The notes below the pieces were generated by a model that was given only the letters and a program-made list of their open reading frames with translations, was not told the origin of the DNA and did not search any database. A program made the translations under genes and the position numbers. From positions 62,001 through 126,000 of the forward strand of contig NZ_CP034894.1 in the NCBI RefSeq assembly GCF_005083845.1: 64,000 nt of DNA, in the 5' to 3' direction. Below are positions 59,757-61,773 of this stretch, piece after piece. How positions within the stretch are numbered: position 1 is the first letter of the stretch; each line of letters opens with the position of its first letter. Source of the stretch: Buchnera aphidicola (Aphis helianthi) (GTDB lineage Bacteria; Pseudomonadota; Gammaproteobacteria; Enterobacterales; Enterobacteriaceae).

Positions 59757-59769
59757 GATATGAATATAA

Positions 59770-61773
59770 GTGATTATTATAGACGTTATTTTACCTTTTT
59801 CAATTAGATCTTATTTTAGTTATATATTACCATATTCAAAAACTCCTATAATCGGTACTCGTGTTGTTGTACCTTTTAATTCAAAAAATGTTATAGGTAT
59901 TGTAGTTGCATTTAATCATAAAGAAAATGCAAAACATTTTAATTTTAAATTTGTTAAATGTATTATTGATCATCAACCGATTTTTAATGCTTCATTATTA
60001 AATACTTTAACATGGGTTAGTAAGTACTACTATTATCCTATAGGAAGTATATTTTTTTCAATTTTACCAAATGTTTTAAAATCTAAAAATATAGAAGTAG
60101 ATGAAAATATTAATAATTTTTTTTTAAATAAAAATATAAGTAAAATAGATCAATTTAAAACAAATAAAAAATTTTTTTTAAATAAAAAAATTTTATTACA
60201 AATAAGTAAAATTATAATTAAAAATTCTTTTGCATCTTGGTTAATATCAGAAATTAATTTGTATATAAAGATTAAATTTTATTTAGGATTAATTGAACAA
60301 ATTTTAAAGAAAAATTTACAAATTTTAATTATTGTACCTTTTGAAAAATATATATATAAAATACTATTTTTTTTAAAACAGTATTTTAATGTTCCTATTG
60401 ATATTATTCATTCCGATTTAACTGATGAAACATTTTTTAAAGTATGGATTAATACTAAAAATAATCAAAATTCTATTATTATAGGAACAAAAAAGAGTAT
60501 TTTTTTTCCTTTTTTACAATTAGGCTTAATTATTATCTATGAAGAGCATAATGTAACTTATAAACATGTAGATAAATTTAAATGTAATGTTAGAGATATA
60601 GCAATATTTCGAGCATATAAAGAAAATATACCTATTATTTTAGATTCAAAAACTCCTTCTTTAAAAACGTTATATAATATTATGCATAAAAAATTTTTTT
60701 GGATAAGTTTATCTCAAAAAAATAGTTCTTTAATGTTAAAATATCAAATTATTGATATAAAAAAAGAAAAAATAAGGGTCGGTTTATCAGATACATTAAT
60801 TTATGAAATTTTTGAAAATATAAAAAAAAATTTTTCAGTGCTGTTAATTTTTCATCCATCTGATTTTATTTTTTTAGGTCTTATTTGTCGTCATTGTAAT
60901 TGGATTCCTAAATGTAATGTTTGCAATGATTACTATGAAATTAATAAATATAATAATATTGCATTTTGTAGAAATTGTTTAATTAATTTTAAAAAACCTA
61001 CGTTTTGTTATAATTGTAATTTTTTTCCATTAACTACATTAAATTTTGGTATAAAAAAAATAAAAAAAAATTTTAAAAAAATATTTCCTAATATATCACT
61101 GTTGTTTTTAATAAATTTAAAAGATATTAAAAGAAAACAATTAAATTCACAACTTTTTAATTTTTCTATTGTGCATTCAGGAATTATTATTAGTACAGAA
61201 AAAATAGTTCAAAATTATTATTTTCCTAATGTAGAATTAATTGGTTTAGTCAATATTGACTATTATTTGTTTTCTTTAAAGTTTTATAATATTGAGTATT
61301 TTTATCAGTTTTATTTGAATCTAGTTAATTTAACGCAAAAAAATTCTAAATTTTTAAATATATTTATTCAAACAACAATTCCTCACAATAAATATTTAAT
61401 AAATATATGCAATGAAAAATATTTTTTTTGTGCTCGTAATCTATTATATTTAAGAAAAAAATTTTTGTTACCTCCATGGAATTGTCAAGTTATTTTATAT
61501 TGTCAAAGCAAAAATTTTAGAAAAACTTATAATTTTTTAAAATTTATATATACTTTATTAAAAAACGAATCTAAAAAAGATAATGTTTTATTATGGTTTG
61601 TAGGTCCTGATCCTGTTTTTTATAACACTCAAAAAAAATGCTTTTATAAATTATTAATACAATGTTCTTCACGTATTTATTTGCAAAAAATATTACGAAT
61701 TTCACTTGAAATTTCAAAACATTTTTCTATATTTAATTGTGTAAAATGGTTTATAGATTTTGATATTAATTAA
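59770..61773 (+). CDS. priA: PriA-like primosomal protein with degenerate helicase motifs
   Basis: E. coli PriA (732 residues) binds stalled forks, unwinds DNA and loads the primosome. This 667-residue product starts with GTG and aligns along its length. The 3'-end DNA-binding domain (1-105) is recognisable by ALP-like ILP ends. All eight zinc cysteines remain (C373, C376, C382, C385, C400, C403, C413, C416). The C-terminal domain (from LPPWNCQVILY) ends WFIDFDIN, like WVLDVDP. The helicase core is ruined. Walker A GVTGSGKTE reads EINLYIKIK, DEEH reads YEEH, GSATP reads DSKTP, GTQMLAKGHHFP reads STEKIVQNYYFP, and the QVAGRAGR motif is gone. It cannot be an ordinary ATPase; it may be a DNA-binding scaffold or a decaying gene. 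Confidence 0.9.
   Translation: MIIIDVILPFSIRSYFSYILPYSKTPIIGTRVVVPFNSKNVIGIVVAFNHKENAKHFNFKFVKCIIDHQPIFNASLLNTLTWVSKYYYYPIGSIFFSILPNVLKSKNIEVDENINNFFLNKNISKIDQFKTNKKFFLNKKILLQISKIIIKNSFASWLISEINLYIKIKFYLGLIEQILKKNLQILIIVPFEKYIYKILFFLKQYFNVPIDIIHSDLTDETFFKVWINTKNNQNSIIIGTKKSIFFPFLQLGLIIIYEEHNVTYKHVDKFKCNVRDIAIFRAYKENIPIILDSKTPSLKTLYNIMHKKFFWISLSQKNSSLMLKYQIIDIKKEKIRVGLSDTLIYEIFENIKKNFSVLLIFHPSDFIFLGLICRHCNWIPKCNVCNDYYEINKYNNIAFCRNCLINFKKPTFCYNCNFFPLTTLNFGIKKIKKNFKKIFPNISLLFLINLKDIKRKQLNSQLFNFSIVHSGIIISTEKIVQNYYFPNVELIGLVNIDYYLFSLKFYNIEYFYQFYLNLVNLTQKNSKFLNIFIQTTIPHNKYLINICNEKYFFCARNLLYLRKKFLLPPWNCQVILYCQSKNFRKTYNFLKFIYTLLKNESKKDNVLLWFVGPDPVFYNTQKKCFYKLLIQCSSRIYLQKILRISLEISKHFSIFNCVKWFIDFDIN

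Follow-up and report, generated by a model that had tools for sequence, protein, structure and literature searches.

Can a PriA whose motor motifs have all been lost still serve replication restart, or is its gene on the way out? The question is raised by priA of Buchnera aphidicola (Aphis helianthi), which lies in a stretch of 64,000 nucleotides (contig NZ_CP034894.1, positions 62,001 to 126,000), here called the window. Where helicase motifs are conserved, the motor is generally assumed to be important (PMC4504706). We find that the motor was lost across the genus while the five tested domains of the protein remained under purifying selection. We consider it likely that the gene encodes a maintained PriA pseudohelicase, ancestral to Buchnera, which most likely acts as an ATP-independent clamp for abandoned forks and feeds a stripped DnaT to DnaC/DnaB route.

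We read the motifs of the window protein against the aligned E. coli PriA. Walker A (GxGKT), Walker B (DEEH) and motifs III, IV, V and VI are all ruined, and the degenerate forms NLYIKI, YEEH, DSKTP, VQNYYFP and NLVNLTQK stand at the E. coli-aligned positions, as an initial annotation of the locus had described. The only residue left of TGSGKT is K167, the equivalent of E. coli K230. A Walker A regular expression run over the whole window protein gave no match, and phmmer against PDB chains aligned residues 151–665 with few gaps, so that no alternative alignment restores the motif and its loss stands. The frame is open as annotated, with a GTG start, 667 amino acids and no internal stop. The protein passes the TIGR00595 PriA family profile (253.4 bits, cut-off 230.35), and the 12 longer PriA equivalog models listed all scored under their own cut-offs (the best 442 against 858). 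No Pfam helicase domain was matched by the window protein, and because the superfamily 2 (SF2) ATPase motifs are ruined we file it as a PriA and not as a helicase. We infer that it lacks ATPase activity.

The non-motor parts have fared unequally. All eight zinc cysteines (Cys 373, 376, 382, 385, 400, 403, 413 and 416) are aligned and retained, in agreement with the annotation. Its statement that the DNA-binding part was kept holds for the 3' DNA-binding domain (3'BD; PF17764, 80.3 bits, cut-off 22.7) and not for the winged-helix domain, whose loss it overlooked: the 92 residues of E. coli (~106–197) have shrunk to ~31. PF21213 has no precomputed match on PriAs of the window's own clade and is present on many other Buchnera PriAs. 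The further claim that both ends are conserved is borne out for the N-terminal 3'BD and, with some qualification, for the C-terminal domain, which is conserved although PF18074 falls slightly short (24.6 against a cut-off of 26.9 bits). D17 and G37, which we take to be two residues of the 3'-end pocket, are replaced in the window protein, and both vary in PriAs with intact motors too (18/25, 21/25). The top PDB match, by sequence and by fold, is 6dcr. A structure model built from 48 sequences has a mean pLDDT of 83.9 and a pTM of 0.85, and only two segments fall below a pLDDT of 50, residues 109–125 at the former winged-helix site and 451–468. By whole-chain TM-score, to which we give little weight, fork-bound PriA/PriB (8fak) ranks slightly over the rest at 0.80, with 6dcr_A at 0.78; below PriA the fold-search list runs to Mfd first, then UvrB, RecG, RecQ-type and other helicases.

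The loss of the motor is shared by the whole genus. A priA match was found in each of the 36 Buchnera genomes of our set, as a single open frame in 27 and interrupted in nine, and a Walker A motif was found in 0/36, so that there is no relative with intact motifs among them. The 27 open-frame proteins are all dead alike, a term that we use for the state of the motifs: G227, S228, D320 and G355 are kept in 0/27, T231 in 1/27 and the two motif VI arginines together in 0/27. The nine interrupted copies contain GxGK[ST] in no piece and retain four CxxC pairs each. What replaced the old motifs is itself conserved in the genus, with KFY after the old lysine, DSxTP and NYYFP as the new consensus. The window clade consists of nine genomes, eight with an open frame plus G025 with a frame break; a tree built from dnaC, nth, tyrS and dnaT sets it apart from the other 27 with a support of 100, as the PriA tree does for its eight open-frame PriAs (support 100). 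Within the genus, loss of the winged helix is confined to this clade, and its sister G030 has a shortened domain. Seven other genera carry a dead PriA and have gene positions as in the window's genome (dnaT at 20–24 kb; rpoB, read in one genome per genus, at 31–42 kb; priA at 82–125 kb), from which we date the loss to the base of Buchnera sensu lato or earlier. This broad-sense group is more than 100 million years old.

We then fitted codon models (IQ-TREE, GY+F3X4) on a tree from other genes, with the linker at the former winged-helix site left out. The ratio of nonsynonymous to synonymous rates (omega) of priA in the window clade is 0.152, and by part it is 0.166 for the 3'BD, 0.144 for lobe 1, 0.081 for the zinc region, 0.129 for lobe 2 and 0.156 for the C-terminal domain; among the 19 remaining intact sequences of the genus it is 0.133. 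Control values in the window clade are 0.105 for nth, 0.088 for dnaT, 0.071 for tyrS and 0.014 for dnaC. With omega fixed at 1 in the window clade, the log-likelihood drops by 326 units when the whole gene is fitted and by at least 33 for each part, and neutrality is rejected for the five domains both there and in the other 19. Five close pairs (whole-gene dS of 0.22–0.43 by NG86) have an omega of 0.19–0.37 by NG86 and, in four pairs, of 0.17–0.24 by YN00, and for lobe 1 every pair lies at 0.12–0.17 by YN00. In three pairs, two from the window clade and one from its sister, the stretch of the winged helix or linker has NG86 values of 0.74–1.88; two pairs with the domain retained give 0.15 and 0.39. 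In a neutral simulation at 5% per-site divergence, ~9 in-frame stops accumulated on average and 0/500 runs were stop-free; the frames of the seven intact window-clade relatives, at 66–72% identity, are open. Together, the omega values and the simulation indicate that priA is moderately constrained, below its neighbours, and that the drifting part is the part that was lost. The annotation's alternative of a gene early in decay is rejected, as the loss is genus-wide, the five tested domains are under purifying selection and the dead motifs have a consensus of their own.

We also looked for the partners of PriA, which the annotation had named as a check. DnaT and DnaC are encoded in the same stretch in 36/36 genus genomes. 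PriC was found in 0/36, with the E. coli control detected by the same search, and PriB above its profile cut-off was likewise found in 0/36. The rpsF–rpsR interval, which is the priB site in E. coli, measures 49–161 bp and gave a PriB match in 0/31 genus genomes read. Matches below the cut-off fall in frames of 172–204 amino acids, and that of the window's genome is its SSB open reading frame, so that we take them as SSB; an SSB with an acidic tail is present in this genome.

The sites at which PriB would dock have gone as well. In the structure of PriA, PriB and a fork, D438, S481, T482 and H483 hold PriB, and D438A and H483A strongly impair docking while T482A does so less (PMC10175261). Among the 27 genus PriAs, D438, T482 and H483 are each kept in 0/27 and S481 in 7/27. 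Across the wider set described below, position 438 is acidic in 20/25 intact against 2/50 dead PriAs, S481 is present in 25/25 against 16/50, T482 in 21/25 against 1/50, and H or Q occupies 483 in 18/25 against 0/50. On the side of DnaT, the preprimosome structure has an acidic linker with D66 and D70 sitting on PriB, and the C-terminal domain docked on lobe 2 and the C-terminal domain of PriA (PMC13377028). In the 36 genus DnaTs this linker averages 12 residues against a reference 27, its mean net charge is +1.7 against −3, and all 36 lack both aspartates through deletion. The C-terminal domain averages 63% identity to E. coli, and the N-terminal part 21%. Of 107 full-length DnaTs from E. coli relatives, 104 have D66 and 103 have D70; Buchnera stands much further from E. 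coli than these relatives do. A further 15 DnaTs, all of them from genomes whose PriB score lies under the cut-off, retain neither aspartate, with E at 66 in one, and most have a long but basic linker. A lysine-rich composition pushes the same way, so that charge by itself counts for less than the deletion seen in Buchnera. Among the features of the PriA–PriB–DnaT preprimosome, then, the PriB gene and its docking sites are missing and the C-terminal domain of DnaT is present.

From 295 genomes of the family we chose mostly small ones by size and score, and thus not a random sample. We searched 32 genomes, of which 31 matched and 30 loci were read, and then read 25 more loci, assigning PriAs by eye from motif tables as intact, half-decayed or dead. 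Outside the genus, 23 PriAs in 15 genera are dead, eight are half-decayed (G101, G050, G169, G183, G215, G253, G257 and G155, all left out of the comparison) and 24 are intact, which gives 50 dead rows and, with E. coli, 25 intact rows. G068 was counted as intact despite a TSSGKT like that of G257 and G155, which leaves the counts by genus unchanged, as its genus also has the intact G206. G063 (49% complete, matched only in pieces) was left out, and G277 was left out of the PriB and DnaT tests.

The same division between motor and zinc domain recurs outside Buchnera. All 50 dead PriAs aligned keep 8/8 zinc cysteines. At 189 columns that are conserved among the intact PriAs, the dead ones show a mean retention of 0.75 for the 3'BD, 0.72 for the zinc region, 0.66 for the C-terminal domain, 0.51 for lobe 1 and 0.40 for lobe 2, and most of the winged helix is lost in some dead PriAs outside the genus too. 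The Walker A lysine K230 remains K in 48/50 dead PriAs and is R in two, and E322, the second glutamate of DEEH (E259 in the window protein), is kept in 50/50. Since K544, another conserved lysine, is kept in only 9/50, an AT-rich composition alone does not explain the retained K230, and K230 and E322 may form a structural latch or salt bridge. By genus, PriB above the cut-off occurs in 0/16 with a dead and 6/9 with an intact PriA (Fisher p = 0.0005, or 0.0017 when the two half-dead genera tested count as dead, kinship being ignored in both), and no dead PriA tested co-occurs with PriB. DnaT outside the genus is found in 9/15 dead-PriA genera and in 1/9 intact ones. RpoB trees (the first made without supports) split the Buchnera-like genera with weak deep supports, and we therefore make no use of a count of eight dead clades; we claim only that the motor was lost several times. 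Four of the loci, L147, L172, L173 and L174 (G150, G136, G245 and G317, small symbiont genomes of two genera), have an in-frame TGA in priA, and in-frame TGA also occurs in RpoB of G136 and in the SSB-like matches of G136 and G317, which a reading of TGA as tryptophan in these genomes would account for.

A natural counterpart is known. PriA pseudohelicases have been described for the Deinococcus-Thermus phylum: D. radiodurans has a full-length PriA with ruined Walker A and B motifs and no PriB, and the protein has no ATPase or unwinding activity and binds single-stranded DNA, forks and DnaB (PMC4504706). It belongs to another phylum and is of independent origin, its Walker A lysine is R whereas K is kept here, and it lacks clear dnaT homologues, whereas the window's genome has DnaT and DnaC and its PriA has lost motif VI and the winged helix. 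The annotation had instead pointed to E. coli PriA mutated in the Walker A lysine. E. coli K230R and K230A (priA300) are indeed ATPase-dead and still assemble primosomes, and K230A has been used for DnaB reloading in vitro (PMC10175261). However, only one residue is changed in these proteins and they depend on PriB, whereas in Buchnera all motifs are gone and PriB was not found. This parallel thus needs correction, as helicase-dead E. coli PriA acts via PriB, priA300 with a priB deletion resembles a priA null, and the double loss of priB and priC is lethal (PMC3334882, PMC9713433). A PriB pathway like that of K230R was accordingly rejected for Buchnera, where PriB and the docking features were not found and the state is further reduced. 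The domain layout of the window protein equals that of 6dcr, an E. coli PriA with an engineered winged-helix deletion, which derives from an active helicase. Databases caution that helicase motifs are missing in actinobacterial PriA. A smaller and very divergent orthologue has been noted in Actinobacteria (PMC1193525), which we liken to the present case by its description only.

Considered together, these comparisons suggest how the clamp might work. The fork would be held by the 3'BD together with the C-terminal domain, and the latter would also join the zinc domain and lobe 2 in closing round the single-stranded DNA of the lagging strand. DnaT would be recruited directly through its own C-terminal domain and would then bring DnaC and DnaB; PriB and PriC would play no part, since neither gene was found and both PriA and DnaT have lost the features on which PriB docks. 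We infer fork binding, DnaT recruitment and DnaB loading from gene content and domain conservation, and it is likewise by comparison only that the annotation's idea of a fork-recognition scaffold for restart without unwinding finds support. In genera without DnaT, a direct contact between PriA and DnaB may take its place, with D. radiodurans as a possible model. Restart with the remaining E. coli steps is the likeliest reading because three lesions (a helicase-dead PriA, no PriB and no PriC) coexist and PriA and DnaT nevertheless stay under selection. More tentatively, and at somewhat less than even odds in our judgement, a fourth and minimal restart route may have evolved repeatedly in insect symbionts, in which an ATP-free PriA ring would recognise the fork, thread the lagging strand and seed a DnaT filament (or contact DnaB where DnaT is gone) with no PriB, PriC or unwinding. 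On this account, the loss of PriB would have gone with that of the helicase, and PriA and DnaT would have lost their PriB sockets in step.

A number of observations weigh against a maintained clamp, and several of them are what slow decay would leave behind, that is, loss of function in the Buchnera ancestor followed by drift, with open frames and conservation as leftovers. In the window clade, the omega of priA exceeds those of nth and tyrS by a factor of ~1.5–2.2; in close pairs, single short parts give scattered NG86 values as high as 0.69 (C-terminal domain, G017/G033) and 0.46 (3'BD, G011/G032), where the nth control itself reaches 0.44; the winged helix is lost and its linker evolves fast (NG86 of 0.82 and 1.88 in two window-clade pairs); and 9/36 genus copies are frame-broken. 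Outside the genus, G256 has only ~130 bp between its nth and tyrS matches, G053 has a priA remnant between these two genes, and G134 has tyrS without priA in the 55 kb read, priA being probably gone; PriA is therefore dispensable in some Buchnera lineages. Slow decay is nonetheless distinctly unlikely in our view. It does not account for the rejection of neutrality for five domains, both within the window clade and among the 19 sequences outside it, for frames that stay open well past the divergence at which simulated ones close, or for the complete set of cysteines in every dead PriA. In all but one of the nine broken copies the frame changes just once, in an overlap with an A or T run of 9–12 nt (G008 has two breaks), and true loss looks otherwise, as a short nth–tyrS gap or a shredded remnant. 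Further points against the clamp concern its partners and the yardsticks used. DnaT is kept without a working PriA found in the Buchnera-like genomes G053 (L177) and G134 (L179), so that its retention is not strictly tied to PriA, and six symbiont genera with a dead PriA have no DnaT found, so that DnaT is not the partner everywhere. PriB absence outside the genus was called by the profile cut-off alone, with no synteny check; D438 and H483 as such are not strict in intact PriAs (D in 3/25, H in 7/25); the PriA/DnaT interface was judged by domain and not by residue, as the available text gives no residue list; and the model fold is no independent test because the model was built from PriA relatives.

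Those six genera would suit a dead PriA kept for a job other than DnaB reloading, for instance to hold or shield stalled forks, to displace or anchor SSB, or to block DnaA-independent replication, which we regard as unlikely. Consistent with such a job, K371 remains K in 48/50 dead PriAs and W83 is present in 27/27 genus sequences. These two residues, with Y87, R698 and Q702, are what we take to be positions of the SSB-tail pocket, and those other than K371 are not well kept among dead PriAs (W83 38/50, Y87 34/50, R698 32/50, Q702 12/50). A helicase-dead PriA also suppresses the pathology of recG-null E. coli (PMC5055574, PMC3533792). However, another job leaves unexplained why DnaT, which acts in both E. 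coli PriA pathways (PMC9713433), is present in every genus genome with its C-terminal domain conserved and its PriB-docking linker lost. The near-universal K167 (K230) and E259 (E322) might instead point to an ATPase activity retained by way of a non-canonical nucleotide site. This is very improbable, as the genus has lost, all together, the glycines and threonine of Walker A, the aspartate of Walker B, GSAT and the two arginines of motif VI, and K230R alone abolishes ATPase and helicase activity in E. coli (PMC4504706).

The coordinates of the priA features in the window are collected in Table 1. The genome that carries the window comprises 645 kb on three contigs, and priA is flanked by nth and tyrS, one on each side (names assigned from the sequences).

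Table 1. Features of priA, by position in the window
Feature	Position	Strand	Evidence
priA, predicted ATPase-dead PriA (pseudohelicase)	59770..61773	+	667-codon open reading frame; phmmer and profile matches, TIGR00595 253 bits against cut-off 230
3' DNA-binding domain (residues 1-105), conserved	59770..60084	+	PF17764 80.3 bits; window-clade dN/dS 0.17
Short linker (residues 106-147) at E. coli winged-helix site	60085..60210	+	Low model confidence at 109-125; evolves fast in two close window-clade pairs
Helicase lobe 1 (residues 148-362), predicted catalytically dead	60211..60855	+	Motif alignment; window-clade dN/dS 0.14
Walker A remnant NLYIKI (E. coli TGSGKT), K167 retained	60256..60273	+	Alignment
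Motif II remnant YEEH (E. coli DEEH)	60538..60549	+	Alignment
Motif III remnant DSKTP (E. coli GSATP)	60643..60657	+	Alignment
Cysteine-rich zinc domain (residues 371-418), PriB-docking residues lost	60880..61023	+	Alignment, codon model
Helicase lobe 2 (residues 419-566), predicted dead	61024..61467	+	Alignment, codon model
Motif V remnant TEKIVQNYYFP (E. coli TQMLAKGHHFP)	61195..61227	+	Alignment
Motif VI remnant NLVNLTQK (E. coli QVAGRAGR), both arginines gone	61318..61341	+	Alignment
C-terminal domain (residues 567-665), LPPW and GPxP kept	61468..61764	+	PF18074 24.6 bits, slightly under cut-off; alignment

At the start of the gene (window 59760–59772), the GTG lies immediately 3' of an in-frame TAA. 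Relatives such as G011, G032, G006 and G014 have an in-frame ATG four codons 5' of the GTG, and in many other relatives TAA precedes the GTG, which gives a three-codon ATG...TAA mini-frame right before the start; the window's own upstream ATG is one base out of frame. The nth gene, which precedes priA, is broken into two frames in G014 (L022). Broken copies in Buchnera are known to be rescued by transcriptional slippage at poly(A). The broken priA copies at L016, L019, L026, L027, L031, L035, L036 and L038 have both frames otherwise intact, as if slippage could still yield the full protein.

In the open-access literature searched (subscription papers were outside the search), we found no earlier description of a dead PriA in Buchnera, and named Buchnera entries in the protein listing read "primosomal protein N'" or "replication restart helicase/protein PriA". 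Judged by these searches, four things are new: the state arose repeatedly in symbionts, PriB was lost in concert with its sockets on PriA and DnaT, the winged helix disappeared, and the zinc domain was left intact. priA and dnaT are among the ancestral essential genes of the family in a transposon study (PMC11481867), which fits their retention. Work in E. coli, where a helicase-dead PriA and, conditionally, loss of PriB suppress the damage from RecG loss (PMC5055574, PMC3533792), suggests RecG loss as a possible cause of the loss of the PriA motor; Buchnera is not among the RecG-lacking genomes listed in the available text of PMC1193525.

These findings conflict with the simple reading of E. 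coli genetics, by which a helicase-dead PriA needs PriB. If the minimal route is true, the combination of a helicase-dead PriA with no PriB and no PriC survives though E. coli genetics predicts death. Such a route would define the smallest plausible restart primosome, which could be rebuilt in vitro from E. coli-like parts, and would bear on how replication is completed in genomes without RecA. The natural losses in 16 genera separate the motor of PriA from its zinc domain, the part that evolution did not give up, and suggest that broken forks may be restarted with far fewer parts than the textbook route of E. coli employs.

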